Assembly: GCA_029548805.1 (NCBI GenBank)
Contig: JAKPMS010000119.1
Location: 1-38,779 of the forward strand
Reading direction: 5' to 3'
Length of the DNA: 38,779 nt
Origin: Spirochaetota bacterium
Lineage (GTDB): Bacteria > Spirochaetota > Spirochaetia > Treponematales > UBA12059
The stretch's first letter is position 1; each line of letters opens with the position of its first letter. The notes under the pieces are model-generated. The model searched no databases, was not told the origin of the DNA, and worked only from the letters and a program-made list of their open reading frames with translations. The position numbers were made by a program, and so were the translations under genes. Below, piece after piece: positions 2,455 through 38,172 of the stretch.

Positions 2455-3970
2455 TGTTGCTACTCCTTGGTGTTACTATGCCTAATTCTCTTATCAATCT
2501 TGAAAGATATGTGCGTTGTATATCGAGAGTACGAGAAGTCTCTGTCTGGTTCCATTCATGCTCATCCAAAGCATTATAAATAAAGTGTTTCTTGAAAATC
2601 TGCAAAGCATCCTTAAGGCTTTTGCCTTTATAGTTGTCTTTTTCGCTAGGGGTGTTTCCAATAAGAAGGTCTTTTGCGCCTATATATTTGTCCCTGGCAA
2701 TAACAACTGCCCGTTCCACGGCATTTTCCAACTCCCTTATATTGCCCGGCCATGAATATGAAAGCATATGTTCCATAGCCTGATCGGTAAATCCGCTAAA
2801 CTGCTTTTTAGTTTCCCTGGAAAACTTTTTAAGAAAAAAATCGGCAAGCACCGGTATATCTTCTTTTCGTTGTCTCAATGGGGGTACATAAATGGGCAGC
2901 ACATTCAGCCTGTAATACAAGTCGCTCCGGAATTCCCCGTTTTTAATTTGGGCTTCTATATCCCTGTTTGTAGCTGCAACAATTCTTACGTCTACAGTAA
3001 TGGTATCGCTGGAGCCAAGCCGTTCAAAAGTTCGTTGTTGCAGAACCCGTAACAGCTTGGATTGCAACTTTAAAGGCAAATCGCCAATTTCGTCCAAAAA
3101 AATTGTTCCGCCATTTGCTAGTTCAAAGCGCCCGCGCCTGTTTTGCACAGCATCTGTAAAAGCTCCTTTTACATGGCCAAAAAGTTCGCTTTCCAGGAGG
3201 CCTTCAGGCAAGGCAGCGCAATTTACCCTTATGAAAGGGCCATTTTTTCTGTTGGACCGCAGGTGAACCTGCTCGGCAAAAAGTTCCTTTCCCACTCCGC
3301 TTTCGCCCAGTATCAGAACTGATGAATCAGTTTTTGCAACCTTGTCAATAAGTTCAAGTTTTTCAGTTATTTCTGGACTGTTGGCTATTAAAACATGGTA
3401 ACCCTTGTCAAGCGATATCTGGTCTCGAAGATAACCTATTTCTTCTTTGGCCCTTTCCAGGTATTTTGCGTTTTCAATGGCTATGGCCGCCTGTACAGCA
3501 AATATCTCAAGCCATTGCAAATCGTCCTGGGTAAAATATTTTTTACCTTTTTTGTTTATTATTTCAAACAAGCCTACACAGCGCTCCCTGACTATCATTG
3601 GTACGGCCAGTATGCTGTAGGTGGGAAAGTCGATGGATTTTGAAATATCTTTGTAAAAACGCGAATCCGTTTCCACATCATTTACAATAAGCGACTGGCC
3701 ATGTTCGGCTACCCAGCCGGCAATGCCTTCTCCGGGATTCAGGCTGAACTTCTGCATTTCCCTGCCCTTTGGGCCAAGGGCTATTTCAAAATACAGTTTT
3801 CCGTCATCTTCATTTTTAAGGATAAGCGAAGCAGCTTCTCCTGCAGTGAGCCGCATCGCTGACTCAAGAATCTGGGTTAACAGGGACGTAGCATCATAGT
3901 AGTTGGAGTTTATCAGCGTATTGATCTCGATGAGTGTTGCAAACTTATCGGGATCTATACGGTCAAACAT
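2447..3970 (-). CDS. GAF domain + AAA+ sigma54-dependent transcriptional activator + Fis-type HTH
   Basis: 507 aa; GAF N-terminus, Walker A 'GESGVGKE', 'GAFTDA' loop, 'GGTIFLDEIGDLP' Walker B, 'WPGNIRELENAVERAVV', C-terminal HTH. Confidence 0.93.
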   Translation of the reverse strand: MFDRIDPDKFATLIEINTLINSNYYDATSLLTQILESAMRLTAGEAASLILKNEDDGKLYFEIALGPKGREMQKFSLNPGEGIAGWVAEHGQSLIVNDVETDSRFYKDISKSIDFPTYSILAVPMIVRERCVGLFEIINKKGKKYFTQDDLQWLEIFAVQAAIAIENAKYLERAKEEIGYLRDQISLDKGYHVLIANSPEITEKLELIDKVAKTDSSVLILGESGVGKELFAEQVHLRSNRKNGPFIRVNCAALPEGLLESELFGHVKGAFTDAVQNRRGRFELANGGTIFLDEIGDLPLKLQSKLLRVLQQRTFERLGSSDTITVDVRIVAATNRDIEAQIKNGEFRSDLYYRLNVLPIYVPPLRQRKEDIPVLADFFLKKFSRETKKQFSGFTDQAMEHMLSYSWPGNIRELENAVERAVVIARDKYIGAKDLLIGNTPSEKDNYKGKSLKDALQIFKKHFIYNALDEHEWNQTETSRTLDIQRTYLSRLIRELGIVTPRSSNNG

Positions 3971-3972
3971 GA

Positions 3973-6339
3973 TTAATTGCTTTTTCTCGAGCTGTCCTTC
4001 TCTTTTATGAGATCGCCGAGGGTGAAGCCTTCTTCTGAGGAGCCTTCATCCATAAAGCGGGACATCTCGGCCTGAAGCTGTTTTCGCTCAAGATCCTTGA
4101 CAGATAAAGACAACTTTTGTTTGCCGGGATTGAGCTCTGTAATTACAACCCTGATTTTGGATCCTGGCTCGTATTTTTTAACAGCGCTTTCGAAATCCTC
4201 GTCTTCATTGGAGCTCAAATTTGCTTTGTTTACCAGCCCTTCAATATTTCCCGGTACTTTTACAAATACTCCAAAATCTGTAATGGAACTGACTGTGCCT
4301 TCCAACACGGAACCGATCTTGTAGTTGGCAGAAAAGGCTTTCCACGGATCTTCCGACAACCTTTTTACAGAAAGCCTGATACTTCTGTCATTGGGTTGAT
4401 TCTCTATAACCATTACTTCCACTTCGGATCCAAGCTGCAGCTCCGATCCCGCATTTCTGACCTTTTTGGTCCAGGAAAGTTCGTCTGCTGGCAAAAAACC
4501 GTCTATACCTTCTTCCAGTTCTAAAAATGCACCGGAGCCGGTAATCTTTACTACCTTTTTGTTAAGCTTCATACCCACAGGGTATCTGGCATCTATGGTG
4601 GTCCAAGGGTTTTCATGTACCTGTCTTAGCCCCAAAGATACTTTTTGCTGATCCAGGTCATAGCCTAGGATCATGCATTCTACAGTGTCTCCAATTTTAA
4701 GCATTTCTTCCGGTTTTTTAACACGTTTTACCCAGGAAAACTCGGAAATATGCGCCAAACCTTCTATGCCAGGCTCCAGTTCTATAAAAGCGCCGTATTC
4801 TGTCAATTTGGTCACAGTGCCATTTACCGAGGCTTCAAGGTGATAGCGCTCCTCAAAAGTTTCCCATGGATCCCTGGTAAAATGTTTTAAAGACAAATTG
4901 ATTCTGCCTTCTTCCGCATCTACCTTGATTACCTTGAGTTCTATTTCCTGGCCTTTTTTAACAAAATCTTTGGGTTTGGCAACATGGCCCCAACTCATGT
5001 CGTTTATATGAAGCAGTCCGTCAAAACCGCCCAGGTCAATAAAGGCTCCAAAGCTTGTAAAGCTTTTTACAACGCCCTTGACTACATCGCCAATCTGAGC
5101 TTCTTTGAAAAAATTTTCCCTTTTGGATTTCATCTCTTCTTCAAGAAAATCCCGCCTGTTGACAACTATATTTACACGTTTATCCGAATATAATCTTTCT
5201 ATATAAAATTTTGCTTTTTGCTTTAAGAGATAATCGCCCTTCTCTACACGTTGAAGGTCAGCTTTGGATATGGGCAAAAAAGCCCTAATGCCATAACCCA
5301 GGTCAACATCAAAACCGCCTTTTATTTCTCTTTCTATAAGGCCTTCTACCGGAGTATGGTTTTTGTGCGCGCTTTGAATATTTCTCCAGTGAACCCTTTC
5401 GTCTGCCTTGCTTTTGGAAACATGGGTTTCCCCGGAACGGGTTTCCTTGCGCAACAATACAACAGTAACTGTATCGCCAATTGCTGGCAGTTCTGCAAAT
5501 TCCGAACATGGTATTTTGCCTTCGCTTTTGGCTCCCACATCTACAAATACGCAATCACTGGATATCTGTACCACCTGACCCTCTACGAGGTCACCCTCTT
5601 CAAGATGGCTTATTGTTTTTAAATATTGCTCCTGTAACTGTGTCTGGATGTTGTCGTCGGAGGGAACAACAGCTTCCATTTCCACTTCCTTGCCCATACG
5701 GCTCCCTTGTTGATGAATTTTCTCAAACACAATGTCATAAACTTGGGCTATGGTCAAGTCCGAACTGTCTATATAGAAGGCTTTGTCAGAAATTTTAAGA
5801 CTTCCTTCTTCCTTATTACTGTCAATTTCGTCACGCATTTCAATGTTGCGCATTATTTCTTCAAAACTAGATCCGGAAAGCTTCTCGTCAAAGCGCCTTT
5901 TTGCCCTTGCTTCTACACTGGCATCCAAATAAATCTGAAGCTCTGCATCAGGGAAAACCACAGTGCTTATATCACGGCCTTCCACTACCGCATCCATGTT
6001 TGCAGCCAGCTTTCTTATATGATCATTTACAATATGCCTTATGCTAACCAGTGCGGACAGCTGCGCGACATGGGCATCGACGTCAGCTGTTCTAAGTTGG
6101 TCCTCTACGAGAAGCTCGTCAAGCATCAGTCTGCCATCCATGTATTTAAGATTGGCTGCTTTTGCATAGCTAATTACAGCGTCTGTATTGTCCGTGTTTA
6201 TTTTGTTTTTAAGTGCTCCAAAAGTTATGGCCCTGTACAGATTGCCGGAATTTATATAAGTAAAGCCCAGTTTTTCGGCAAGCATGCGTGCAATTGTGCT
6301 TTTTCCGGATCCTGCGGGGCCGTCAATGGCAATTATCAT
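3973..6339 (-). CDS. Cytidylate kinase fused to ribosomal protein S1
   Basis: 788 aa; N-terminal CMP kinase 'MIIAIDGPAGSGKSTIARMLAEKLGFTYINSGNLYRA', then repeated S1 RNA-binding domains (e.g. 'GDVVKGVVKSFTSFGAFIDLGGFDGLLHINDMSW'). Confidence 0.95.
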   Translation of the reverse strand: MIIAIDGPAGSGKSTIARMLAEKLGFTYINSGNLYRAITFGALKNKINTDNTDAVISYAKAANLKYMDGRLMLDELLVEDQLRTADVDAHVAQLSALVSIRHIVNDHIRKLAANMDAVVEGRDISTVVFPDAELQIYLDASVEARAKRRFDEKLSGSSFEEIMRNIEMRDEIDSNKEEGSLKISDKAFYIDSSDLTIAQVYDIVFEKIHQQGSRMGKEVEMEAVVPSDDNIQTQLQEQYLKTISHLEEGDLVEGQVVQISSDCVFVDVGAKSEGKIPCSEFAELPAIGDTVTVVLLRKETRSGETHVSKSKADERVHWRNIQSAHKNHTPVEGLIEREIKGGFDVDLGYGIRAFLPISKADLQRVEKGDYLLKQKAKFYIERLYSDKRVNIVVNRRDFLEEEMKSKRENFFKEAQIGDVVKGVVKSFTSFGAFIDLGGFDGLLHINDMSWGHVAKPKDFVKKGQEIELKVIKVDAEEGRINLSLKHFTRDPWETFEERYHLEASVNGTVTKLTEYGAFIELEPGIEGLAHISEFSWVKRVKKPEEMLKIGDTVECMILGYDLDQQKVSLGLRQVHENPWTTIDARYPVGMKLNKKVVKITGSGAFLELEEGIDGFLPADELSWTKKVRNAGSELQLGSEVEVMVIENQPNDRSIRLSVKRLSEDPWKAFSANYKIGSVLEGTVSSITDFGVFVKVPGNIEGLVNKANLSSNEDEDFESAVKKYEPGSKIRVVITELNPGKQKLSLSVKDLERKQLQAEMSRFMDEGSSEEGFTLGDLIKEKDSSRKSN

Positions 6340-21336: not shown

Positions 21337-21996
21337 TCAGTTCGATACAAAAAAGCGCTTTTCTATAAGTGCGCATAATTCGTGGTACACTGGTCTGTGC
21401 AAATCCTGGATTTCTCCGGCGTTTTTACCGGGGCAACAGATGGTCTCTGTACAGTGTTCAGCCAGCAAACTGGGCTCCGGTCCAGTCAGCCCTATAACGC
21501 TCATGCCCATGGCTTTGGCAAGCTTGGCTGCCATAATGACAGAAGCAGATTTTCCTGAGGTGGAAAGACACAAAAGGCAGTCACCTTTTGTGGCCAAAGC
21601 CAAAACTTGCTGCGCAAAAACATAGTCAAAGCCCTGGTCGTTGGCAATGGCAGTAATCAGTGCGGAATTGGAGCACAAGGAGATGGCAGGTAAGCCGCCC
21701 TGAAGATTTTTTAATAGAGGCGCGTCTTCCTTAAAAGTTGCCGCGTATTCTTCCAGCTTTTCCGGGCTCAAAGGCCTTTTTAAAAGGAAGCCCTTGACCA
21801 GCTCGCCGGCTATATGCTCAGCATCGGAAGCCGAACCGCCATTACCGCATATAAAAAGCCTGCCCCCTTTTTTAAAGCTTTCCAGCAACAATTCCGTACT
21901 TTTAACAAACGAACTTTTTACAGACCCAAGTTCCGGGAATTTGGCGGACAAAATGTCAAACCCGTCCTCTGCCAATTTTAATGTATCCTTATTCAT
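21337..21996 (-). CDS. SIS-domain sugar-phosphate isomerase, GmhA/DiaA-like
   Basis: 219 aa; 'GNGGSASDAEHIAGELVKGF', 'LCLSTSGKSASVIMAAKLAKAMGMSVIGLTG'. Confidence 0.85.
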   Translation of the reverse strand: MNKDTLKLAEDGFDILSAKFPELGSVKSSFVKSTELLLESFKKGGRLFICGNGGSASDAEHIAGELVKGFLLKRPLSPEKLEEYAATFKEDAPLLKNLQGGLPAISLCSNSALITAIANDQGFDYVFAQQVLALATKGDCLLCLSTSGKSASVIMAAKLAKAMGMSVIGLTGPEPSLLAEHCTETICCPGKNAGEIQDLHRPVYHELCALIEKRFFVSN

Positions 21997-22014: not shown

Positions 22015-23109
22015 CTATTCAGACGCCATGGCATGGGCAGCTGTCTTTGGAAAATTTATTGCTACCATGTCTCCCTGATTGAAGAAACCGTTTACCACAG
22101 GGTCATGCGAAACAGCCAAAATGGGGCTGTCAAGGCCAGCATCTATTTCGTATTCAACCACAGATCCCAGGTATACTGCTTTTTCTATTTTGCCACCAAT
22201 AATGCTTTTTGTCTTTTTTTCTGCCGGCTCCAGCACTAGGGATTCCGGCCTGACTGCAAGTATGCATGGGCTCCCGTCAGCCAAGTCTCCTGTATGAGAG
22301 TTTGCGCTAATTTCCACACCCTTAAAGCTAGCAGCAGCCTCTTCTCCCCTTATGGATACAGTTTCACAGGGTATAAAATTGACTCGGCCAATAAAGTCAG
22401 CCACAAAACGTTTGGCAGGCCGGGAGTATATCTCGAAAGGAGTGCCAATCTGAATTACCCTTCCGTTGTTCATGACGACTATACGGTCGGAAACAGTCAT
22501 GGCTTCTATTTGGTCGTGGGTTACATAAATGCTTGTTATTCCAAAGGCTTGTTGAATGCGGCGTATTTCCAGGCGCATCTGGTCGCGCAGCTTTGCATCA
22601 AGATTGGAAAGCGGTTCGTCAAAAAGAAGCACACTGGGTTTGTTTATAATTGCCCTGGCCAACGCCACCCTTTGTTGTTGTCCTCCGGACAACTGGTCCG
22701 GCCTTCTTTTTGCCAGAGGCAAAAGGCCCATGACTTCCATTATTCTGCGGCTTTCTTCCTTGACTTCTTTTTTGGCATGGCCTTTCAATTCAAGGCCAAA
22801 GCCTATATTTTGTTCTACAGACATGTGAGGAAAAATGGCATAGCTCTGAAATACCATTGATGTGTCCCTCTTGTTGGGAGGAATGTCGTTGACAAGTTTT
22901 CCGGATATAAAAACCTTGCCTTCTGTGGGGTTTTCAAAACCTGATACTATTCTAAGTGTAGTGGTTTTTCCGCAGCCTGAAGGGCCCAGGAAAGTGACAA
23001 GTTCTCCCTCTTTTATTTCCAGGCTTACCTGGTCAAGCGCTTTTATATGGCCATCCTTGCGGCTTGGGTCATCAAAAATTTTGCTTACATTTTCCAGTAT
23101 TACGCTCAT
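22015..23109 (-). CDS. ABC transporter ATPase, AfuC/FbpC/PotA-like
   Basis: 364 aa; Walker A 'GPSGCGKTTTLRI', signature '[15 protein letters not shown]', TOBE-like C-terminus. Confidence 0.92.
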   Translation of the reverse strand: MSVILENVSKIFDDPSRKDGHIKALDQVSLEIKEGELVTFLGPSGCGKTTTLRIVSGFENPTEGKVFISGKLVNDIPPNKRDTSMVFQSYAIFPHMSVEQNIGFGLELKGHAKKEVKEESRRIMEVMGLLPLAKRRPDQLSGGQQQRVALARAIINKPSVLLFDEPLSNLDAKLRDQMRLEIRRIQQAFGITSIYVTHDQIEAMTVSDRIVVMNNGRVIQIGTPFEIYSRPAKRFVADFIGRVNFIPCETVSIRGEEAAASFKGVEISANSHTGDLADGSPCILAVRPESLVLEPAEKKTKSIIGGKIEKAVYLGSVVEYEIDAGLDSPILAVSHDPVVNGFFNQGDMVAINFPKTAAHAMASE

Positions 23110-23120
23110 AATGGCCTCCG

Positions 23121-24812
23121 TCAGAAGTTCAGCATTGTTCCGGCATATTTGCCATAGCGCAGCTTCAGTACAGCCCTGATCAATGCTATGGCAGCAAATA
23201 TAATAATAACAAGTATCACGCTAAAAGCTGCAGCCGAACCCAGTCTGCCAGATTCAACCTGCGACATTATTTGTACAGTTACCAGGAACCAGCGCGATGA
23301 AACCAGGAATATGGCTGCGCTTATGGCCGTCATAGCGCGTACAAAGGCAAACACCAGCCCCGAAAAGTAAGCAGGTACAATCATGGGAAGGGTTACCCTG
23401 GAAAAGGTTGTTTTTGCATCTGCTCCCAGATCTATGGCGGCTTCTTCAATTGCCGGATCTATCTGCCTTAAAATGGCTATTCCAGATTCAATACCCACCG
23501 GCACATAACGGAAAATAAAGTTAAGGAGCAGTATGGACAGGGTGCCTGTCAGGATGAAAGGTGCCCTGTTGAATGCAAGAATATACCCTATACCTATTAC
23601 CGTTCCCGGCACGGCAAAACTCAACATGCTGGTAAACTCCATAAACTTGCGCCCTGGAAACGATTTCCGGATAACCAGAAACGCAATTATCATCCCCAGG
23701 GTTCCGGAAACTGGAGTGGATATTCCGGCTATGGTCAAAGTATCCTTGACGGATTTAAAACCAACGCCAAAAGCATACTTGAAATGTTCCAAAGTCAATG
23801 AGTTGTTGCTGCCCCATACTTTGGCTACAGCTCCCCAAAGTACGGTCAGGTATATCATTATTATGAGCAGTGTAAACAGCATGCAAGCCGCAAAAATCAG
23901 TACTCTGGCAAGAGGACTGACTATTTTTATGCTGGAGCTTGCCGGCTTTCCTGTAATTGTTACATAACGTTTTTTGGATACCCAGTATTTCTGTATTATC
24001 CATGCGCTTATGGACGGCACCAGCAAAAGTATGGAAAGGGCTGCTCCGCTGGGCAGGTCGTACATGCCGGTTATCTCAAGATATGCCTGGACTGACAGAA
24101 TAGGAAAGCGGCTGCCGGTAAGAATAAGCGGATTGCCAAAGTCTGCTAGGCTTTCAATAAAAAGTACCAGCATGGCACTTGCCAAACCTGGCAGTGCCAA
24201 GGGCAAAGTAACACGCATAAACACTTTAAACCTGGATCCGCCAAGATCAAGAGCGGCATCTTCCAACGTCGGGCTTATGGATTCCAGAACGCCGCGCAGG
24301 GCAAGATACGCTACAGGAAAAAAGGTTATGGTCTGGGCAAGCATTAAGCCTCTCAAACCATAGATGGGAAAGTTCTGTATTTTTAACAAATTCCAGGTAA
24401 TAAAACCATTGTTTCCAAAAAGCATTATAATGGCCAAAGCCCCTATGAAGGGCGGTGACACAATGGGAATGATGGCTATGGCATGCAAAAGCCGTTTGAA
24501 CGGCACATCGGCCCTGGTCACGGCAAAGGCAAAAAGAAAACCGATTGCAGTGCCCAAAATGGCGGTCAGGCCTCCTACCAGCAGGCTGTTTCTGAAACCC
24601 TGCATAAAATACTTGTTCCGCACAGCATTCATAAAAATGCCAAGCGTCCATTTGTTGCCGTCTTTGAATGCTGTGGTTACAACTCTTGCAATAGGGAAAA
24701 TAATAAAAAATCCGAGAGCCAAAAGGATTGCCAAAACAGCCATAGCCAATATTGGATCTTTCAGAATTTTTTTTGTATCAGACAAAGATTTAGCAAAGCT
24801 GTTTTGTAACAT
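23121..24812 (-). CDS. ABC transporter permease, tandem two-domain AfuB/FbpB type
   Basis: Start at ATG 24812 (MLQNSFAKSLSDTKKIL...) has a GGAG SD-like sequence; track start 24887 is longer. Two permease EAA-like loops: 'EDAALDLGGSRFKVFMRVTLPLALPG' and 'EEAAIDLGADAKTTFSRVTLPMIVPA'. Confidence 0.9.
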   Translation of the reverse strand: MLQNSFAKSLSDTKKILKDPILAMAVLAILLALGFFIIFPIARVVTTAFKDGNKWTLGIFMNAVRNKYFMQGFRNSLLVGGLTAILGTAIGFLFAFAVTRADVPFKRLLHAIAIIPIVSPPFIGALAIIMLFGNNGFITWNLLKIQNFPIYGLRGLMLAQTITFFPVAYLALRGVLESISPTLEDAALDLGGSRFKVFMRVTLPLALPGLASAMLVLFIESLADFGNPLILTGSRFPILSVQAYLEITGMYDLPSGAALSILLLVPSISAWIIQKYWVSKKRYVTITGKPASSSIKIVSPLARVLIFAACMLFTLLIIMIYLTVLWGAVAKVWGSNNSLTLEHFKYAFGVGFKSVKDTLTIAGISTPVSGTLGMIIAFLVIRKSFPGRKFMEFTSMLSFAVPGTVIGIGYILAFNRAPFILTGTLSILLLNFIFRYVPVGIESGIAILRQIDPAIEEAAIDLGADAKTTFSRVTLPMIVPAYFSGLVFAFVRAMTAISAAIFLVSSRWFLVTVQIMSQVESGRLGSAAAFSVILVIIIFAAIALIRAVLKLRYGKYAGTMLNF

Positions 24813-24940: not shown

Positions 24941-25978
24941 TTATTTGACGGGAAGCACCTCGCTTACCCAGCGGTCAACCAGGCGCTTTTTTTCTGCACT
25001 TGCCCAAGCTGTGTCCATTGTAACAGTTTTAAGGGTTTCAAAGGCTGGCATACCCTTTCCTAGAGGAACCCCAGGGGTCACAGGATAAAAGTATGTACTG
25101 GCTTTGGACAGGATTGCCTGTCCATTTGGACTAGTCAGCCATTCGACCAGAGCCTGGGCAGCTTTAAGATTTTTTGCATCCTTTACAATGGAAACAGCAG
25201 GTGCTTCAAAGCTTACACCTTCCGACGGGAAAACCACTTCCAGAGGGTGTCCCTTGTCTATAAACTCGAAAAATGCCGGTGTAAACTGAATGCCTATCAT
25301 GCTCTGTCCTACTGCAACACCCTGAGAAGGAGCAGTACCAGAAGAGGTATAAGTCTGAACGTTTGGAGCCAGTTTTTTCATATAGTCATAGGCCTTTTCC
25401 TCGCCCATGATAAGAACAAAGGATGCCAACAGATTGTAGCCTGTACCAGCTGTCTGGGGACTTGGCAATTGTATCTGACCCTTGTATTCAGGCTTCAAGA
25501 GATCATTCCAGGATTTTGGCATGGAAGCTCCCTGCCTGGCCAGAATATCCTTGTTTATGGCCAAAGCCATGGGATTCATGTAGAAGCTGCGCCAATAACC
25601 TTCTGCATCCTTGAATTTTTTATCCAGGGAGGCAAAATTTCCTCCGGTGTGGGGAATGGTCAAACCGTCATTTTTGGCTGCAGCATGATTTTCGCTGGGA
25701 GCGCCCATCCATACATCAGCCTGCGGATTGGCAGCCTCCGCCTTGAGCCTGGCCAGGGCCGGTCCGGTGGACAGGTGGACAAACTGGGCAGTAATACCGG
25801 TATCTGCAGTAAAGGCATCCAGGATTTTTTTGGCGTTGCCTTCATCTACACTAGAGTAAACAATAACCAGTTTTGGTGTATCCTCAGCTGCTTTTTCTTT
25901 ATCACCAACAGCAAAAACAGCAGAACCCAGGGTAAGTGCGATAATGGAAAAAGCCAACAACCTTTTGTACTTTTTCAT
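24941..25978 (-). CDS. Periplasmic solute-binding protein, AfuA/FbpA-like
   Basis: 345 aa; signal peptide 'LLAFSIIALTLGSAVFA', 'LVIVYSSVDEGNAKKILDAFTADTGI', 'PQADVWMGAPSENHAAAKNDGL', 'TYTSSGTAPSQGVAVGQS'. Confidence 0.88.
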   Translation of the reverse strand: MKKYKRLLAFSIIALTLGSAVFAVGDKEKAAEDTPKLVIVYSSVDEGNAKKILDAFTADTGITAQFVHLSTGPALARLKAEAANPQADVWMGAPSENHAAAKNDGLTIPHTGGNFASLDKKFKDAEGYWRSFYMNPMALAINKDILARQGASMPKSWNDLLKPEYKGQIQLPSPQTAGTGYNLLASFVLIMGEEKAYDYMKKLAPNVQTYTSSGTAPSQGVAVGQSMIGIQFTPAFFEFIDKGHPLEVVFPSEGVSFEAPAVSIVKDAKNLKAAQALVEWLTSPNGQAILSKASTYFYPVTPGVPLGKGMPAFETLKTVTMDTAWASAEKKRLVDRWVSEVLPVK

Positions 25979-26014: not shown

Positions 26015-26030
26015 AGCAATTAGCATGCCA
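26015..26030 (-). promoter_or_regulatory. Predicted sigma54 (-24/-12) promoter
   Basis: Minus-strand TGGCATG-CTAA-TTGCT: GG-N10-GC spacing and match to TGGCAYR-N4-TTGCW. About 37 nt upstream of the solute-binding-protein ATG (25978); GGAGG SD at 25983-25987. Confidence 0.85.
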
Positions 26031-26144
26031 TATTATTATTTTGGCAAGCTTTTCTGGTATATGCGACAAACTTCAATATAGCTACGAGATTGCTGCTTAT
26101 TTTGCTTGTTAAAAATACAGAGTTTTAAAATAAATGAAATACCT

Positions 26145-26181
26145 GTGCAATAAGTGTGCATTAATTGCACGTATATTGCAC
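26145..26181. promoter_or_regulatory. Symmetric four-half-site enhancer-like operator
   Basis: GTGCAATAAGTGTGCATTAATTGCACGTATATTGCAC: GTGCA at 26145 and 26156, TGCAC at 26166 and 26177; 11-nt spacing within each pair, overall dyad symmetry. Confidence 0.7.
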
Positions 26182-26206: not shown

Positions 26207-27541
26207 TCAAGACAGCTTGTACTCTTTCAGTCTATAATAAAGCGTGCGGCGGGAAATGCCCAGAATACGAGCGGCCTCACTTTTAACCCCCATGGCTTTT
26301 TCAAGGGCTTCTAATGTGAGCCGTTTTTCTTCTTCCTTTCTTAAAAGCTTATAATCATTGTACAAGCTTTTGGCAGGCTGGCCGGATTGCCCAAAGCGCT
26401 CCGGCGCTTCATCTTTTAACAACTGTGCATTTAAGGATACAGGCCGATATAAAACGAGCAGTCTTTCTATAAGGTTTTCAAGCTCCCTTATATTACCTGG
26501 CCAATTATACTGCCTAAGGCATTCCAGAAAGGATGCATCAACCAGCGGAAAATCCATAGCTTCTCTTTTGGTAAAAATTGAAACAAAATGCTCCACCAGC
26601 TCCGGTATATCCTCAAGCCGATCCCTTAAAGGCGGTATATGCAATGGCACTACATCCAGCCTGTAGAACAAGTCGCTGCGAAACTGGCCTTCTTTTACCA
26701 TGGTATCAATATCTTTGTTGCTGGCAGCCAAAAGCCTAAAATCAGCGCTTATAAGCTCGGTTCCCCCTACCCTTGAATAAACTCTCTCCTGCAACACTCT
26801 GAGCAATTTAATTTGAATTTCCTGGCTTATCTCGCTTATTTCGTCCAGGAAAAGGGTTCCTCCCCTGGCTGCTTCTAGATAGCCGTCCTTGCGTTTTATG
26901 GCATTGGTAAAAGCTCCGGCTTCGTGCCCAAAAAGTTCGGATTCCAGAAGGTTGATATTTAAAGCTGCACAATGTACAGGAACAAAGGGCCCGTTTCTTC
27001 TTTTGCCGCTTTTATGAATAGCCCTTGCTATAAGTTCCTTTCCTGTGCCGTTTTCTCCGCGCATAAGAACCGTAGCTTCCGAACTTGAAATAGCATCTAC
27101 CCTTGAAAGCAGTTTTTTCATGACTGTTCCGGAGCCTATAATCAGCTTGCCTGCAGAGCTCCCTGCCTTCTGTTCCGTTTTTTTTTGGACCAAAGCCTGC
27201 TTTACAGTTTTAAGCAATTCGGCCGAATTTACTGGCTTTGCCAGATAATGGACAGCCCCCCGCTTTATAGCTTCAACAGCTCCCGGGACATCCGCGTATG
27301 CTGTAATAAAAATGAAAGGTGCATTCATACCGCGGCTGGCTAGCTCCTTAAAAAGGCTTACTCCGTCCATGCCGGGCATGCGTATATCGGAAACAATCAA
27401 ATCCGGCTGCATGTCCATAGCCATGGCCAATGCTTCTTTGCCATTACCCAGTGCTGTTACCTGGTATCCGGCATTTGTAAGCATGGCGGCAATTATTGTC
27501 CTAATGGACTCTTTGTCATCCACCAACAGTATGCGGTTCAT
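26207..27541 (-). CDS. NtrC-family sigma54 response regulator
   Basis: 444 aa; receiver 'LIVSDIRMPGMDG', AAA+ 'GENGTGKE', 'GAFTNA', 'FLDEISEIS', C-terminal Fis HTH 'KSEAARILGISRRTLYYRLKEY'. Confidence 0.95.
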   Translation of the reverse strand: MNRILLVDDKESIRTIIAAMLTNAGYQVTALGNGKEALAMAMDMQPDLIVSDIRMPGMDGVSLFKELASRGMNAPFIFITAYADVPGAVEAIKRGAVHYLAKPVNSAELLKTVKQALVQKKTEQKAGSSAGKLIIGSGTVMKKLLSRVDAISSSEATVLMRGENGTGKELIARAIHKSGKRRNGPFVPVHCAALNINLLESELFGHEAGAFTNAIKRKDGYLEAARGGTLFLDEISEISQEIQIKLLRVLQERVYSRVGGTELISADFRLLAASNKDIDTMVKEGQFRSDLFYRLDVVPLHIPPLRDRLEDIPELVEHFVSIFTKREAMDFPLVDASFLECLRQYNWPGNIRELENLIERLLVLYRPVSLNAQLLKDEAPERFGQSGQPAKSLYNDYKLLRKEEEKRLTLEALEKAMGVKSEAARILGISRRTLYYRLKEYKLS

Positions 27542-28891
27542 TTATATCTCACGGACAGGAATGCACAATTCCGCCACCATGCCTTTATGCTGCCCGTTTT
27601 GCAGGCTCAAGCTGCCTCCATGTTTTTCCGCAGCTTTTCTGGAAAGAGACAAGCCCAAGCCTGTCCCGTCAGGCTTGGTTGTAAAAAACGGTTCAAATAT
27701 CCTGTCAAGCTTGTCTGCGTCAATGCCCGTGCCTTCATCGCTTACCCTGATACAGGCTGTCTCGCTATTTGCAGACAATGACAGTTTTATGGATGCTCCA
27801 TCAGAAGAAGCTTCTATGGCATTTAAAAGCAAGTTCAAAACAACTCTTTGTATATCATTTTTTATGATATATACAAAACAGTTTTGCAGAAAGGTTTCTA
27901 TCCTGATATTGTTTTTTTTTGCTGTTGCAGCTACCAGACTGACTGCGTTTTTGCATATTTGTGCAAGGTTGCTGTATTCGGCAGCAGTATTTCCGTTGCG
28001 TGAAAATTCCAATACCCCCGACAGATATTCATTAAGGTTTTGAACTTCTTCATTCAAAATTTTTAGATATATATTGCTTTTTGGAACAAGGTTTCCAATA
28101 AGCTCTGCGGCTCCAGATATTGCCGTAAGGGGGTTTCTTATCTCATGCGCTATTTCTGCAGCCATTCTGCCTATGGTTGCTAGTTTTTCTTCCTTGAGAA
28201 GTTCATTTCTGTATTCAATAGCCCTTAATTGCAGATCATCTATGGCTTCTGCTATTTTCATGACTTCGGGGGCTGTATATTTTGGCATGACCAGTTTCAG
28301 AGCCGGCCTGTCCGGATGAGCCTGGTACAAATTTTTAACCAAGCTTTTGACAGGAATGAATAACTGCCTGTACATCAGGGCCATAAACACTATGGATAAA
28401 AGCAATTCCAGTGCCAAAAAATGCCCCAAGCTTACCAAGTTGGAATTTATCTTTTGATTAAGCCTTGTTTTTGTCATGGACATTTCTACATAAGCATTGG
28501 ATTTTCCTGGGATGTTTATCGGGAAGCGTACAAGCAGCCTGTTGTCTGCCCATCTTAATACCTCAAAGCCATCTCTTGGGCTGGAAAGGGTCCAGCCGGG
28601 CAAACTGGGATCGGATGCAGCCACAACCATGGAATTGGAGTCGCAAATAAAAATATATTCAACATCCCTTTCTTCCATAAAAGAAGAAAGCTGCTTGTTC
28701 AATTGCCCCAAGCCTCCATATATCAATGGTTCCCTGGCCAACTCTGCCAGAGTTTTTGTCAATACCCCTGCCCTTTCTTCTGCTTCTTCCATCAGGACAT
28801 GCCGTTCTCTGATCATGGAAGCCGTCCACTGGAAAACCAGCAGCAATCCAAGCAGCAAGGCAAAAAGCGCAAATTTATTGTTTAGGCTCAC
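27542..28891 (-). CDS. NtrB-type membrane sensor histidine kinase
   Basis: 449 aa; two TM segments around a sensor region, H-box 'AAEIAHEIRNPLTAISGAAELI', N-box 'LLNAIEAS', 'DEGTGIDADKLDRIFEPFFTTKPDGTGLGL'. Confidence 0.94.
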   Translation of the reverse strand: MSLNNKFALFALLLGLLLVFQWTASMIRERHVLMEEAEERAGVLTKTLAELAREPLIYGGLGQLNKQLSSFMEERDVEYIFICDSNSMVVAASDPSLPGWTLSSPRDGFEVLRWADNRLLVRFPINIPGKSNAYVEMSMTKTRLNQKINSNLVSLGHFLALELLLSIVFMALMYRQLFIPVKSLVKNLYQAHPDRPALKLVMPKYTAPEVMKIAEAIDDLQLRAIEYRNELLKEEKLATIGRMAAEIAHEIRNPLTAISGAAELIGNLVPKSNIYLKILNEEVQNLNEYLSGVLEFSRNGNTAAEYSNLAQICKNAVSLVAATAKKNNIRIETFLQNCFVYIIKNDIQRVVLNLLLNAIEASSDGASIKLSLSANSETACIRVSDEGTGIDADKLDRIFEPFFTTKPDGTGLGLSLSRKAAEKHGGSLSLQNGQHKGMVAELCIPVREI

Positions 28892-29687
28892 CGGTCAAAA
28901 CCTTCAACTGTTCAATTTTTTTCAGCAACATGCTGTTTTCCTTGTAAAATGAAATTCCGGCAGCATTCAATTTGAATAAACCTTCTGCCAAAGACAGCCT
29001 GGCTGTTTCTATTCCTTCCAGTGTTACCAGCAAATATAAAGGATAGCTGTCGGTATAAAGCAGCTCTCTAAGCTTTAACCCAAGAACATTTTGCTCATGC
29101 TTTTTAAGAAAGCCTTCGGGAACAAAGCCGGCGTCAAACTTGTTCATAGCAATATTCAGCAAAACTCCTTCGTAATCATATTCAAGGCTTATGGAATCCG
29201 GGTTTTTTATCAAATCGCCCAAAAAAAAGGCAATGGGATAATCCCAGGACAGGCTGCCTGGCCCGCCACTGGCTACAAATTTTGCCCGCCAAAGGTCTTC
29301 TTTTTTATGTATTATGCTGTTTTTTGCAACAATTAAAACAAATCTTTCATATTGCTGGCCGTAATAGGATAAGGATCCCAAAACTTTTAAAGGGCTTTGG
29401 TTTTGAACATATACTCTTGGGTCTATTATGGCAATTTCTGCCAACTTGTCATAAAGCAAAGAGAGGCAGTCTTTTTGGTTTCTTACCATACGGACGTCCA
29501 AAGCAGCACCGTACAAGCTTTTCATTTCTTCTGATAATTGCTGCCAAACTGATGCGCTATCCAGGCTGCTGTCTCCCGGTGTAAGCGCTATTCGCAACGG
29601 AGGTATGACGGTAATTTCCTGGGCATTAAGGCTGCCGGCATATAAAACAGCCAAAAGAAAAATTTTTACCCTGTTTGACATGGACAA
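28875..29687 (-). CDS. Periplasmic PhnD/SsuA-like binding protein, probable accessory sensor
   Basis: 270 aa; signal peptide 'IFLLAVLYAGSLNAQ', PhnD-like 'LLYDKLAEIAIIDPRVYVQ', 'FVASGGPGSLSWDYPIAFFLGDLI'; stop overlaps the kinase start by 17 nt. Confidence 0.7.
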   Translation of the reverse strand: MSMSNRVKIFLLAVLYAGSLNAQEITVIPPLRIALTPGDSSLDSASVWQQLSEEMKSLYGAALDVRMVRNQKDCLSLLYDKLAEIAIIDPRVYVQNQSPLKVLGSLSYYGQQYERFVLIVAKNSIIHKKEDLWRAKFVASGGPGSLSWDYPIAFFLGDLIKNPDSISLEYDYEGVLLNIAMNKFDAGFVPEGFLKKHEQNVLGLKLRELLYTDSYPLYLLVTLEGIETARLSLAEGLFKLNAAGISFYKENSMLLKKIEQLKVLTGEPKQ

Positions 29688-31705: not shown

Positions 31706-33087
31706 AATCCTTCCTCTCCAGTTAAAACTTTTCTTTTTATTGTTTCTTCTCGCTTATATTTCAGTATACAGTTTCTGTTGATAATACCAAGCAGTTTATC
31801 TTTGTCAATAACCGGAAGATGTCCTATGTTTTTTTCAAAAATAATCGCTTCCACTTCCTTAATTGTAACATTTGGGCCAATAAATACAACAGGCTTTGAC
31901 ATAAAATTTTTTATTGGCGAATTCATCTGATCGGCTTTTCTGCCTTTCATTATATCCCTTAAAGTAAGAAAACCGCTTACTTTATTTGAGGCATCAAGAA
32001 CAGGGACCCCTGTCTGCGAAATATTTTCCAGCAATACGGACGCTTCCAAAAGGCTTTTGTTCTCGTCGATGCAAGCGATATCGGTATCCATCAAATCCAC
32101 AGCTTTGTAGGCAGGCTCCAGCAATATTTCCATATACGCAAAAATGCTGTCTTTTACAGCTTCTGGATTGCCGGTTTTAAGAGTGGTAGAAGCGGCATTT
32201 TTATGCCCTCCTCCGCCAAATGCGGACAAAAGTTCGGACAAATTCAGCTGCGGCAAGGATGACCTGCCTATAACCAGCAGCTTTCCCTTGTCCCTGAAAG
32301 CAAAAAAGCCCAGCAATGCATCATAGCTGTTTATTTTGAAAAGCTGTTCTATTATTGCTCCCAGGCCTTGAGCCTCCAAATCCAGTTCCATATAACAATA
32401 GTGAATATCATTACCATTTATGCTGGCTTGCTTTATATTGTTGAAAGCCTCATGAAACAACAATTGCTGCTTTTTATCCTGCAGGGGGATCAAAAAATCC
32501 TTGACCAGCTTAAGGGATGCGCCGCTGGCCAAAAGAAAGGAAGCTACATCAAAGTCTTCCTGAACAACATTTTCGTGGATAAAATTGCCCGTGTCCGCGT
32601 ATATGCCGGCCAAAGCTATGGTGGCATCTTCCGGCTCCAAAAAGATGCCCCTTTTAATTATTTCCATACCCAATTGGCTGGCGTTTGCCCCATATTTTTT
32701 CTCATGAATCTGTACTGCATCCAGGTCCTTTCCGCAGGATGGATGATGGTCGTATACTATAAACTTGATGGACTCGTAATTTGTAACCCCCCTGAAATAT
32801 TCTTCCACTCTGTCCGAGGAACGGGTATCAACCACTACAGCCTGTTCCACTTGCCTGCCTTTGAGTTCTGCAGCGGATACAAAACCCAGTCTGTCTTCGT
32901 ACAGATTCATGAGCTTCCGGGCTACTGGATGTACAAGATGGCTTTTGATACATATATGGTCAGTATATATATATTTTGCCAGCACCATTGAAGCAATTGA
33001 GTCAAGGTCCATATTGCTGTGGCCTACTATGATTTTAAGCTTTTGGTTTTCCTTGCTATTTGTCTTGTCCATAATGGTTTCTTGCAA
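31684..33087 (-). CDS. DHH-DHHA1 phosphoesterase with C-terminal CBS pair
   Basis: About 467 aa; 'IIVGHSNMDLDSIASMVLA', 'IVYDHHPSC', DHHA1 'SAFGGGGHKNAAS', CBS-like 'GVPVLDASNKVSGFLTLRDIMKG' and 'IGHLPVIDKDKLLGIINRNCIL'. The start is uncertain: the first codon at 33087 is TTG, and an ATG lies at 33072. Confidence 0.85.
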   Translation of the reverse strand: MQETIMDKTNSKENQKLKIIVGHSNMDLDSIASMVLAKYIYTDHICIKSHLVHPVARKLMNLYEDRLGFVSAAELKGRQVEQAVVVDTRSSDRVEEYFRGVTNYESIKFIVYDHHPSCGKDLDAVQIHEKKYGANASQLGMEIIKRGIFLEPEDATIALAGIYADTGNFIHENVVQEDFDVASFLLASGASLKLVKDFLIPLQDKKQQLLFHEAFNNIKQASINGNDIHYCYMELDLEAQGLGAIIEQLFKINSYDALLGFFAFRDKGKLLVIGRSSLPQLNLSELLSAFGGGGHKNAASTTLKTGNPEAVKDSIFAYMEILLEPAYKAVDLMDTDIACIDENKSLLEASVLLENISQTGVPVLDASNKVSGFLTLRDIMKGRKADQMNSPIKNFMSKPVVFIGPNVTIKEVEAIIFEKNIGHLPVIDKDKLLGIINRNCILKYKREETIKRKVLTGEEGLWISGPI

Positions 33088-33718
33088 ACTCCTGCATTGC
33101 CAGCATATCCGCCCGTTTTATCAATTCTGGGTTTCCTATGGATTTTGCCAAAATGTAAATTTGTGCAGTTTTTTCAACTACATAACAAACCTTTTTTGCC
33201 GTTTCCCAGTCGGATCCGCAACATACAGTACCGTGGTTGGGAATAATTACAGCATTTCTGTTGCCCAGCCCCTTGACAACATTTTTAGAAAGCTCTTCTG
33301 TTCCCGGCAGTGCATAGCTGCAATTTATAACTTTGTCTCCCACAATTTGTACAAAGTCTTCGGATATACCGGGAAGGTCTTCTCGGATTACGCCCAGAAC
33401 GGAAGAGTAAACGGGGTGGGTATGTATAACACTGTTAATGTCTGAGCGGGCTTTCATTATTTCTATATGTATTCTGTATTCAATTGTAGGCTTTCTGAAG
33501 CCGTCAACAATATTGTACTCCGTATCAAAAACAACTACATCATCTTTTGTTATGTTTTTATAGTTCATCCCGGAGGGTTTGGTATATATAAGTCCTGTGT
33601 CCGGATCCCTGATGCTCAAATTGCCCCAGGTGCCTACAGTAAGTTTTTCTTCCAGCAATTCTTTGCCACCGGATACTATCATGGTTTTGAAAGCATCCTT
33701 TACCGCATGCTTTTTCAT
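33056..33718 (-). CDS. Class II aldolase/adducin family protein (fuculose-1-phosphate aldolase / Ald2-like)
   Basis: 220 aa; 'TVGTWGNLSIRDPDTGLIYTKPSGMNY', 'SVIHTHPVYSSVL', 'IIPNHGTVCCG'. Confidence 0.88.
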   Translation of the reverse strand: MKKHAVKDAFKTMIVSGGKELLEEKLTVGTWGNLSIRDPDTGLIYTKPSGMNYKNITKDDVVVFDTEYNIVDGFRKPTIEYRIHIEIMKARSDINSVIHTHPVYSSVLGVIREDLPGISEDFVQIVGDKVINCSYALPGTEELSKNVVKGLGNRNAVIIPNHGTVCCGSDWETAKKVCYVVEKTAQIYILAKSIGNPELIKRADMLAMQEFARNHYGQDK

Positions 33719-33763
33719 AAAACTTCCTTTCTAAGCAGCAAGCAAAAAAACAGACCGGCCTGT

Positions 33764-34576
33764 TTATATTAAAGGCAAAAAACCTTTAAGCAGGGCAGAA
33801 AACTTTTCTTTTACCATAAGTCCCGTTTCTAAAACTTCCTGTTCGGTGATGGGCTGGTCCAGAATTCCTGCAGCCATATTGCTTATGCATGAAATGCCGG
33901 CAACTTTCATGCCGGCATGCCCGGCACATACAGCTTCCGGTACAGTTGACATGCCGACAGCGTCTGCCCCAAGAATTTCAAGCATTCTTATTTCTGCGGG
34001 GGTTTCAAACGAAGGCCCGCTCATAAAAGCATAAACTCCAGTTTTTAGGTCCACACTCATATTTTTTGCTGTATTTAAAATAATTTCGTTTAGGTTTTTG
34101 TCATATAATCTGGACATATCAGGAAATCTTGGGCCATAGGCATCATCATTTTTACCTATAAGCAGATTTTGACCCGTCATGTTTATATGGTCATGGATGA
34201 GCATCAAGTCTCCCGGCCGGAAAGTTCGGTTTATTCCGCCGGCAGCATTAGTAAGTACAAGTTTTTCTACACCCAGCCGCTTCATCAGCCTTACTGGAAA
34301 AGCTATGTCGTCCATACTGTAGCCTTCGTAATAATGAAAACGGCCCTCCATGATTACAAGCTCGCAGCCGGCCAGTTTCCCTGACCTTAAACGGCTCTTA
34401 TGCCCGGGTGCAGTGGAAATGGGAAAGTTTGGTATGTCCTTGTAAGGGATAAGTATGGTTTCCAGGGTTTCTTCTGCCAGAGCAGAAAGCCCGGAGCCAA
34501 GGACCAGCAGAATTTTTGGCTGGTTTTTAATATGCTTGCCGATATAGCCAAGCGCTTCTTCAATTCTGGTTTTCAT
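33764..34576 (-). CDS. Purine-nucleoside/methylthio-nucleoside phosphorylase (PNP/MTAP family)
   Basis: 270 aa; 'LVLGSGLSALAEE', 'STAPGHKSRLRSGKLAG', 'EGRFHYYEGYSM', 'LTNAAGGINRTFRPGDLMLIHDHIN', 'GPSFETPAEIRMLEILGADAVGMSTVPE'. Confidence 0.92.
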   Translation of the reverse strand: MKTRIEEALGYIGKHIKNQPKILLVLGSGLSALAEETLETILIPYKDIPNFPISTAPGHKSRLRSGKLAGCELVIMEGRFHYYEGYSMDDIAFPVRLMKRLGVEKLVLTNAAGGINRTFRPGDLMLIHDHINMTGQNLLIGKNDDAYGPRFPDMSRLYDKNLNEIILNTAKNMSVDLKTGVYAFMSGPSFETPAEIRMLEILGADAVGMSTVPEAVCAGHAGMKVAGISCISNMAAGILDQPITEQEVLETGLMVKEKFSALLKGFLPLI

Positions 34577-34610
34577 GTTTTAACCTGCCCTAAAAGATGT
34601 TTGTAAAACT

Positions 34611-35915
34611 TCACGGCCCAAAGCCAGAACTGCCAACAAGCTTCATGCAGCTTTCCTGGGCTTTGGCATAAATTTCACTTTCGTCAAGCAAAAGAAGCTG
34701 CCTGTTTTCCATAAGGAGCTGTCCGTTGCATACAAGTGTTTTTACATCTGTGCCGCCGGCACCGTATACTAATGAAGCTGAAGCACTGTTGCGCGGATAA
34801 AAGTGCGGCGCTGTGGTATCAATAATTATCAGGTCGGCCCTTTTCCCCGGCTCAAGGCTGCCCGTTATGTTATCAATGCCCAGGGCTTTTGCTCCTTTTA
34901 TTGTGGCCATTTGCAGAGCCTGGTAAGCGGACAAGGTTTTGGGCTCCTTGCTTTTGCCCTTGGCCAGCAAGGCTGCAAGGTTTATTTCTTCAAACATATC
35001 CAGATTGTTGTTTGAAGCTGCCCCGTCTGTTCCTAAAGCCAGGTTGATACCAGCATCCAGCAGCTCTTTTACAGGGGCTATGCCGTTAGCCAGTTTCAAA
35101 TTGCTGGCCGGGTTATGAACAACTGATACAGAATGATCTTTTAGTATCTCAATGTCATCGTTGCTCAAATGGACACAATGTGCTGCATAACAGGAAGCTT
35201 CAAACAAGCCCAAATCCCTGGCATGTGCTACTGGGCTTTTTCCGTAAAGCTTGTAACAGTCTTCCAGCTCTTTGATGCTTTCTGACAGATGCATGTGTAT
35301 TCTTGTATTGAGGCTTTTGGCCAGGTCTGCAGTTTTTTTGAGATATTCCGGCCCGCATGTATAAATGGCATGAGGAGCAACATCGACCAGTATCCTGCCG
35401 GAAGCCTGGCCATTCCATTTATCATAAAAGGCCCTTGTTTCTTCCAGCTTGTACAAGTCTTTGTCATCAGAAAAAGACAAGCCTCTTGAAAGATTAGCCC
35501 TAAGGCCGCTTTTTTCCAGCGCCATGGCAACTGCATCCATATAGAAATACATGTCGGAAAGGCAAGTGGTTCCGCTTTTGATCATTTCTACCAGGCTGAG
35601 CATGGTACCGTTGTAAACATGCGTGGCATTAAGTTTTTCTTCTGCCGGAACTATTCTGCCAAAAAGCCAGTCCCAAAAGGACAGGTCATCAGCATAATGC
35701 CTAAAAAGGCTCATGGCCAGATGTGTATGGGCATTGACCAGACCCGGAAGGACAATGCCGTCATCTGCGTCAATTATCCTGTCCGGCGTAAAAAAATCCG
35801 GACAAGAACCAATAAAGGAAATTTTGTCGTTTTCTATGCCAATACAACCATACAGCAATTCCGGGACATCATTTTGGACAGGAAGGATATTTGCGTTTTT
35901 TATAAGTATTTTCAT
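34611..35915 (-). CDS. mtaD: 5'-methylthioadenosine/S-adenosylhomocysteine deaminase-like amidohydrolase
   Basis: 434 aa; 'GLVNAHTHLAMSLFRHYADDLSFWDWL', 'HMHLSESIKELEDC', 'LGTDGAASNNNLDMFEEINLAALL'. Confidence 0.9.
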   Translation of the reverse strand: MKILIKNANILPVQNDVPELLYGCIGIENDKISFIGSCPDFFTPDRIIDADDGIVLPGLVNAHTHLAMSLFRHYADDLSFWDWLFGRIVPAEEKLNATHVYNGTMLSLVEMIKSGTTCLSDMYFYMDAVAMALEKSGLRANLSRGLSFSDDKDLYKLEETRAFYDKWNGQASGRILVDVAPHAIYTCGPEYLKKTADLAKSLNTRIHMHLSESIKELEDCYKLYGKSPVAHARDLGLFEASCYAAHCVHLSNDDIEILKDHSVSVVHNPASNLKLANGIAPVKELLDAGINLALGTDGAASNNNLDMFEEINLAALLAKGKSKEPKTLSAYQALQMATIKGAKALGIDNITGSLEPGKRADLIIIDTTAPHFYPRNSASASLVYGAGGTDVKTLVCNGQLLMENRQLLLLDESEIYAKAQESCMKLVGSSGFGP

Positions 35916-37093
35916 CCAAGCATCCCTTCCAGCTCTGCCAAAATGTCGTTTTTGTTTTCCAGCCCCACAGACAATCTTATCATGCTTTCTGAAAGGCCAA
36001 AAGCTTTAAGGCTTTCCCTGTCATACGCCCTGTGGGTCATTGCGGCAGGCAGCTGTATGAGGCTTTCGCAATCGCCTAGGGATACCGCCAGCTTAAAAAG
36101 TCTGCATTTGTTCAACAGCTTTTTAGCATCATGCAGGGATCCTTTTAGCTCAAAGCTTATAATGGCTCCGTAACCGCTCATTTGCTTACGGGCAACTTCA
36201 TGTCCCTTAAAGTTTTCAAGTCCTGGGTACATTACCCTAGCTATGTTTTTATGCTTGTCCAGAAAGTTTGCAACAGCCATGGCATTTTCTTCATGCTGTT
36301 TCATTCTTAATGGCAGAGTTTTCATGCCGCGCAACACAAGCCAGGCATTAAATGGGCTAAGAACTCCGCCAAATTCGCACATATATCCAAATTTCAGCTT
36401 ATTAAGGTAGTCTTCGTCCCTGGCTACAGCCACCCCTGCCAACACATCGCCATGGCCGCAAAGATATTTGGTTGCGCTATGAACCACTATATCTGTTCCA
36501 AAATCCAATGGCCTTTGAAAAAAAGGGCTTGCAAAAGTATTGTCTGCCACGGTTTTTACATTGCGGGCTTTGGCAAGCTCCGTCAGTTTTTTTATATCTA
36601 TAATATCCATATTGGGATTGCTTGGGGTTTCAAAAAACATGGCTTTTGTATTAGGGCCAAAATATTTTTCCAGTTCTTTTAAGTTTGTAAAGTCTGCTAG
36701 TCGCAGCGAAATTCCGTAGTTTTTTAACAGGCTGGATATAAAACTGTAACTGGAGCCGTACAAGGTCCTGTGAAGCAGAAGTTCGTCACCTGGTTTTAAA
36801 AGCGAAAAAAGGACATTGCTTATGGCTGCCATTCCCGATGCAAAAGCCACGGCTCCTGTTCCGTTTTCCAGTGAAGCAATCCGGTTTTCAAACAGTCTTA
36901 AAGTGGGATTGTTGCCTCTGGTATACACATAATCATTGCTCTTGAAACTCATTACTGCTTCTGCAGCTTCTATATTGTCAAATGTAAAGCTGGATGTCAT
37001 GAAAATGGGTGGATTCAGAGCATGTTCCGCATTGGAGCTATCCGCGCCGGCATGAATGGCCCTGGTCTCAAAAGCATAGTTTTTATCCGCCAT
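35912..37093 (-). CDS. Cys/Met-metabolism PLP enzyme (methionine gamma-lyase / cystathionine gamma-lyase-synthase family)
   Basis: 393 aa; 'YTRGNNPTLRLFENRIASLE', PLP-lysine 'DIVVHSATKYLCGHGDVLAG', 'MIRLSVGLENKNDILAEL'. Confidence 0.92.
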   Translation of the reverse strand: MADKNYAFETRAIHAGADSSNAEHALNPPIFMTSSFTFDNIEAAEAVMSFKSNDYVYTRGNNPTLRLFENRIASLENGTGAVAFASGMAAISNVLFSLLKPGDELLLHRTLYGSSYSFISSLLKNYGISLRLADFTNLKELEKYFGPNTKAMFFETPSNPNMDIIDIKKLTELAKARNVKTVADNTFASPFFQRPLDFGTDIVVHSATKYLCGHGDVLAGVAVARDEDYLNKLKFGYMCEFGGVLSPFNAWLVLRGMKTLPLRMKQHEENAMAVANFLDKHKNIARVMYPGLENFKGHEVARKQMSGYGAIISFELKGSLHDAKKLLNKCRLFKLAVSLGDCESLIQLPAAMTHRAYDRESLKAFGLSESMIRLSVGLENKNDILAELEGMLG

Positions 37094-37122
37094 GAATTAC
37101 CTCTCGGCTTATTCTGCTGCCG

Positions 37123-38172
37123 CTATTTGTTTTTGCCAAGTGCATTTGCAATAGATTCGGAAAAAGGGGGCCGTAATACGCCTTTTTCTGTAATAATGGC
37201 GCTAATGTTTTCTGCGGGGCTTACATCAAATGCCGGATTGTATACATTTATGCCATCCGGAGCCAGTTTTATGCCATCCAACATTGTTACTTCTGTGGCT
37301 GGGCGCTCTTCAATCTTTATTTGATTTCCTGTAGCGCAGCTTGGGTCAATTGTGGACAATGGAGCTGCCACATAAAAGGGAATGCGGAAATGAGCCGCTG
37401 CAAGGGAAAGAGCAAAAGTGCCAATCTTATTGGCTGTATCTCCGTTTGCGGCTATTCTGTCCGCTCCAACAACTACCAAATCCACTTTTCCGTCACGCAT
37501 CAGGCAGGCTGCAACGCTATCCGCAATGAGGGTACAAGGAATGCCCTCAGTTAGCAGTTCCCAGGCAGTAAGCCTTGCGCCCTGCAGTCTGGGCCTGGTT
37601 TCATCCGCAAATACAGAAAGCTTTTTGCCGCTGCCATAGGCAGCCTTGATCATGCCAAGCGCTGTTCCAGGGCCGGGAACAGCCAGAAAGCCGGTATTGC
37701 AATGGGTGAGTATCCTGGCCCCATCAGCTATCAAATCAGCGCCAAAAAGCGACAATTTTTTGCTTTTTTCAATGTCCTCGTTATGCAAGCAGTCTGCTTC
37801 CTGTTTTAATATATTGCCGGCTTCTTCCGGCTTGGTCCAATCCAGCGAATCAAAAACATTCAGCATTCTGTTTATGGCCCAGTTCAAGTTGACTGCGGTT
37901 GGCCTGGCTTTTGATAAACTGGCCATTGCATTATGCATCAAATTGACAAAATCGGCGCCAGAATGGTTTTTGTACTGCATTGCGGCCAGAACTGCTCCAT
38001 AAGCAGCGGCAGCCCCAATGGCAGGCGCTCCCCTTACTACCATATCCTTTATGGCATAATCGCAATCCTGCCAGGTTTTGCATACAAAAAAGGAAAATTT
38101 ATTAGGCAGCTGCCTTTGATCAATCAGTTTTAATGTATTGTCTACAAACTCCATTGCTGAAAGCGAACCCAT
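37123..38172 (-). CDS. mtnA: S-methyl-5-thioribose-1-phosphate isomerase
   Basis: 349 aa; 'DMVVRGAPAIGAAAAYG', 'ILTHCNTGFLAVPGPGTALGMI', 'ETRPRLQGARLTAWEL', 'VVVGADRIAANGDTANKIGTF'. Confidence 0.94.
   Translation of the reverse strand: MGSLSAMEFVDNTLKLIDQRQLPNKFSFFVCKTWQDCDYAIKDMVVRGAPAIGAAAAYGAVLAAMQYKNHSGADFVNLMHNAMASLSKARPTAVNLNWAINRMLNVFDSLDWTKPEEAGNILKQEADCLHNEDIEKSKKLSLFGADLIADGARILTHCNTGFLAVPGPGTALGMIKAAYGSGKKLSVFADETRPRLQGARLTAWELLTEGIPCTLIADSVAACLMRDGKVDLVVVGADRIAANGDTANKIGTFALSLAAAHFRIPFYVAAPLSTIDPSCATGNQIKIEERPATEVTMLDGIKLAPDGINVYNPAFDVSPAENISAIITEKGVLRPPFSESIANALGKNK

Follow-up and report, generated by a model that had tools for sequence, protein, structure and literature searches.

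A predicted sigma54-dependent control region between an NtrC-type two-component system and an AfuABC-like transporter operon in Spirochaetota

Positions 26015-26181 of the window, the 38,779-nucleotide stretch of spirochaete DNA analysed here, very probably serve as the control region for a transporter operon that depends on sigma54 and is run by the adjacent two-component system. The DNA elements, the domains of the encoded proteins, the presence of rpoN and the conservation of sites and promoter with the regulator clade were all computed, and together they form the basis of the circuit that we propose below.

Genes and DNA elements of the module

The module consists of seven genes, all of which lie on the minus strand, pointing leftward, with open frames. 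Three of these encode the predicted sensing and control proteins: a PhnD-like periplasmic binding protein of 270 amino acids (28875-29687; PF12974; same gene order in orthologous loci), a sensor histidine kinase of 449 amino acids (27542-28891; HisKA and HATPase_c) and an NtrC-type response regulator of 444 amino acids (26207-27541). The kinase gene overlaps the PhnD-like gene on one side and abuts the regulator gene on the other; in those orthologous loci whose upstream sequence reaches far enough, the PhnD-like gene stands directly before that of the kinase, and its product is probably the kinase's sensory partner. The target operon opens with an AfuA-like solute-binding protein (345 amino acids, 24941-25978, assigned by similarity to AfuA) and continues with an AfuB-like fused double permease (563 amino acids, 23121-24812, two BPD_transp_1 stretches) and an AfuC-like ATPase (364 amino acids, 22015-23109, ABC_tran and TOBE_2). 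After an 18-bp gap comes what is probably its last gene, encoding a GmhA-like SIS isomerase (219 amino acids, 21337-21996, SIS_2) that scores 143 bits against TIGR00441, under the cut-off of 209. An SIS isomerase also follows AfuC in loci L049, L052, L053 and L066; in L054 (9330-10418) and L055 (11908-13080) a guanylate/adenylate cyclase-domain protein replaces it after the ATPase gene.

The earlier note had taken the gene beside the half-site array for an NtrC-family activator, and domain searches bear this out: receiver (PF00072), AAA+ sigma54 activator (PF00158) and Fis-type HTH (PF02954) domains all match far above cut-off. The Walker A motif is present (GENGTGKE); the sigma54-contact loop reads GAFTNA, where nearly all orthologues have GAFTGA. 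Assignment as NtrC proper (NR(I)) was rejected, with a score of 419 bits against the TIGR01818 equivalog cut-off of 558.6. Absence of rpoN from the genome had been named as a finding that would speak against the circuit; the gene is present in the source genome (PF00309 match, E = 2e-13).

Everything that had been described as directly visible in the DNA proved correct. The predicted enhancer, identified by pattern search and by hexamer enrichment in orthologous regions, is a symmetric array of four TGCA-core half-sites at exactly 26145-26181 (no strand assigned), with GTGCA at 26145-26149 and 26156-26160 and TGCAC at 26166-26170 and 26177-26181. The window has a single copy of the full pattern, GTGCA-N6-GTGCA-N5-TGCAC-N6-TGCAC, where dinucleotide shuffles predict 0.00, and a pattern search of the whole assembly (2,385,672 bp in 215 contigs, 94.6% complete) returned it as the sole match at up to 3 mismatches among its 20 fixed bases; the pairs TGCAC-N6-TGCAC and GTGCA-N5-TGCAC each have one further occurrence elsewhere in the genome. 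The array stands 25 bp from the end of the regulator gene (26207), inside a 228-bp control region between regulator and afuA; the -24 GG follows 115-152 bp downstream of it. Its distance and order relative to the promoter agree with known NtrC-family promoters. Autoregulation was considered and rejected, as only one TGCACA, without an array, lies upstream of the PhnD-like gene.

The sigma54 promoter, TGGCATGCTAATTGCT (GG-N10-GC; 26030-26015, minus strand), lies just upstream of the binding-protein gene. It combines GG-N10-GC with the TGGCAY...TTGCW context, scores 19.5 of 20.5 points in our in-house scheme, a value that none of 200 shuffled versions of the upstream 320 bp reached, and is conserved at the same position in orthologues. 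The pattern by itself is only moderately specific and would prove little, since TGGCAY-N5-TTGCW has a second exact match in the window, at 28401-28416, within the kinase gene. Transcription is predicted to start at ~26004, giving a leader of ~26 nt, and a GGAGG ribosome-binding site precedes the afuA ATG at 25978.

From these elements we infer regulator binding, phosphorylation, DNA looping and a ligand as further parts of the circuit. The periplasmic PhnD-like protein and the membrane kinase would sense the solute, whereupon the kinase would phosphorylate the NtrC-type regulator. At 141-177 bp before the start, the regulator would then oligomerise on the TTGCACA half-sites and reach sigma54-RNA polymerase at TGGCATGCTAATTGCT by looping of the DNA, and its use of ATP would open the promoter of afuA-afuB-afuC-(SIS isomerase).

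Elsewhere in the window, leftward genes at 33056-38172 resemble in sequence a methylthioadenosine/5'-deoxyadenosine salvage set, with a putative class II aldolase, purine nucleoside phosphorylase, amidohydrolase/deaminase, PLP enzyme of Cys/Met metabolism and MtnA-like isomerase. A single 788-aa frame at 3973-6339 is an apparent fusion of cytidylate kinase to ribosomal-protein-S1 repeats; it adjoins a GAF-type sigma54 activator (2447-3970) with a GAFTDA loop.

Promoter and half-sites across orthologous loci

We drew AfuA relatives from 23 family genomes, 395 phylum genomes and GTDB species genomes, and mapped their flanking genes by tblastn. The genomes bearing the nearest orthologues belong to Spirochaetota. 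A regulator orthologue lies directly upstream in 15 loci and is missing there in 19; L059 and L060 were kept as special cases, and L071 is decayed. A sigma54 promoter 44-100 bp before afuA is found in 14 of the 15 regulator-adjacent loci, as are at least two TTGCAC/TGCACA hexamers farther upstream (again 14 of 15), while the AfuA relatives without the regulator have neither promoter (0/19) nor half-sites (0/19). The nominal Fisher p for this association is ~1e-8, uncorrected for kinship among loci some of which are close relatives. With the window excluded, the hexamers that ranked first in enrichment were TTGCAC, present in 12 of 13 regions, and TGCACA, present in 11, against ~0.7 expected. 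The stretches between regulator and promoter are ~80-260 bp long and, outside the motifs, dissimilar by eye. These data support the earlier proposal that the array is the activator's predicted enhancer and the transporter operon its target: sites and promoter track the regulator clade across loci.

Individual loci depart from this pattern in small ways. In L054 the promoter score is weak: GG-N10-GC is present, and the -24 box is poor. L064 (upstream of position 4523) lacks an exact hexamer, carries repeated TRGCACA sites and keeps its sigma54 promoter; this apparent operator drift from TTGCACA to TRGCACA is a possible natural co-change of regulator and site. AfuA paralogues of ~38-40% identity in the same family (L024-L034) are preceded by neither a sigma54 promoter nor a half-site array, and were set aside as different transporters.

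Conservation of the array had been suggested as a check, and here the outcome was divided. The sigma54 promoter and TTGCACA half-sites do accompany the regulator, adjacent or in trans, but the exact quadruple pattern is not conserved: among 99 loci it was found in the source genome only, so four-fold symmetry is not required. Half-site number, spacing and orientation differ among species, with TGCA cores mostly 9-13 bp apart, and we thus regard the symmetry as a local embellishment. What is conserved, judged by sequence comparison, is the TTGCACA half-site together with the promoter, not the four-fold array.

L059 and L060 have promoter and half-sites without an adjacent regulator. Both genomes encode one elsewhere, at 47-50% identity to that of the window (next best ~42%) and with a matching kinase directly upstream. 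A maximum-likelihood tree groups these two trans regulators with 14 adjacent ones in a single clade (support 100/100) and leaves 21 other sigma54 activators outside it. The genomes of the site-less loci L039, L053, L057 and L058 yielded only regulators of at most ~42% identity. At the expected position of the regulator gene, L059 has a long inverted repeat (1-330) and L060 (~2240-2400) a stretch similar to the end of a tyrosine recombinase, which suggests that a rearrangement separated the regulator from its target. L071 (~830-1663) keeps fragments of afuA and afuB and an identifiable relic of the sigma54 promoter, and its genome yielded no close orthologue of the regulator.

The limits of INDEPENDENCE are apparent on the AfuA tree, where the regulator label changes ~5 times and the site label ~4. 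The tree yields 2-5 independent pairs, in none of which the site contradicts the regulator, and a sign test, underpowered at 2-5 pairs, gave no significance after kinship correction. The association of regulator and site is clean in pattern while resting on a handful of independent evolutionary events.

Competing explanations

On one rival reading, the palindrome works in RNA, as a hairpin by which the regulator transcript is terminated or stabilised, instead of serving as a DNA operator. Its place 25 bp past the regulator stop codon would suit such a role, as would the long hairpin that the transcribed strand forms (-18.4 kcal/mol, z = -3.0), but no T run follows directly, the direct repeats of orthologues, such as TGCACACATCTTGCACAC, are unable to form this hairpin, and L059 and L060 keep the sites with no regulator gene in front. 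We consider this explanation extremely improbable, though as a minor extra role the hairpin could add a terminator-like effect on the regulator transcript. It is also very improbable that the half-sites bind a different regulator, such as a general nitrogen regulator or another of the genome's sigma54 activators, with the adjacent two-component system controlling something else. The source genome does encode several further sigma54 activators, and TGCA-core sites resemble NtrC sites generally; yet the sites follow this regulator clade, trans positions included, they are missing where only other activators occur, and the array is found at no second place in the genome.

A different concern is that the circuit is decaying in the source genome, with regulator and promoter persisting as relics or only weakly active. 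The window's regulator reads GAFTNA where nearly all orthologues of its clade read GAFTGA, it sits on a long branch within its subclade, and L071, with its broken afuA and leftover promoter, is a decayed relative. Against this, other activators examined likewise differ at the fifth position of GAFTGA (D, S), none of the seven genes is interrupted, the promoter is near-perfect and no other locus examined has so regular an array. Decay is on these grounds unlikely in the extreme sense of a relic or a barely active circuit, and we hold it highly doubtful; weak or altered activation by the regulator in the source strain is possible.

Solute, novelty and relation to known systems

The earlier label of the transporter as AfuABC-like holds for its architecture of AfuA-class protein, fused permease and ATPase, but should not be taken to imply a hexose-phosphate specificity. 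The AfuA-like protein matches solved AfuA at E = 1.1e-49, and alignment to Actinobacillus AfuA reveals that it keeps most residues around the phosphate (G38, G149, T150 and G185, with S37 replaced by T) and E229, with T60 and S148 changed. The window protein has P and A in place of H205 and D206, both of them individually required for AfuA to bind glucose-6-phosphate (PMC4546632). With two of the three essential sugar-coordinating residues missing, 'AfuABC-like' does not equate to a hexose-phosphate transporter. The solute is likely phosphorylated or otherwise anionic, and the presence of an SIS isomerase is a hint of a sugar phosphate.

The open-access literature searched, whose coverage is incomplete, contained no account of this circuit. 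It is apparently undescribed, new as a member of a class whose general principle is textbook; the earlier view that a self-contained local circuit is unusual was overstated, since local sigma54 circuits of this sort are a common arrangement. Taken more broadly, it is reasonably likely that these loci represent a so far undescribed module for sensing a phospho-solute, widespread in Spirochaetota: through a kinase and an NtrC-type regulator, a dedicated PhnD-like periplasmic protein would switch on an AfuABC-like importer of a phosphorylated solute, by way of TTGCACA enhancers and sigma54. Most documented sigma54 circuits of spirochaetes come from pathogens (Borrelia Rrp2, Leptospira), and the module would be a compact conserved circuit in environmental spirochaetes. 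Because it pairs a predicted operator, TTGCACA, with an orphan transporter, both operator and solute are directly testable. The cases with trans regulators, together with those lacking regulator and sites alike, would make it a clean example of regulator-site co-evolution.

Among known transporters, the best NCBIfam models for all three transporter proteins are those of PhnS2-PhnT2-PhnU2, a putative 2-aminoethylphosphonate importer; identity with this system was rejected, as TIGR03261, TIGR03262 and TIGR03265 all fall below their curated cut-offs (214/393, 366/458 and 313/593 bits). The AfuABC hexose/heptose-phosphate importer (PMC4546632) shares the AfuA-class binding protein, fused permease and ATPase, and control of AfuABC by a sigma54 circuit was not described in the literature searched.

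Among known control systems, PgtC-PgtB-PgtA likewise places a periplasmic protein, a kinase and an NtrC-like regulator by a transporter of phosphorylated compounds; its target is the PgtP permease, whereas here it is an ABC importer. Assignment to the PgtABC phosphoglycerate sensing system itself was rejected, with scores far below the equivalog cut-offs (212 against 650 bits for PgtA, 84 against 1000 for PgtB). The DctB/DctD-dctA type has in common with the present circuit a kinase, a response-regulator activator, an upstream enhancer, a sigma54 promoter and a transporter as target. The circuit proposed here differs from that type in its AfuABC/PhnSTU-class ABC importer, its PhnD-like periplasmic sensor partner, its TTGCACA half-sites and its occurrence in Spirochaetota.
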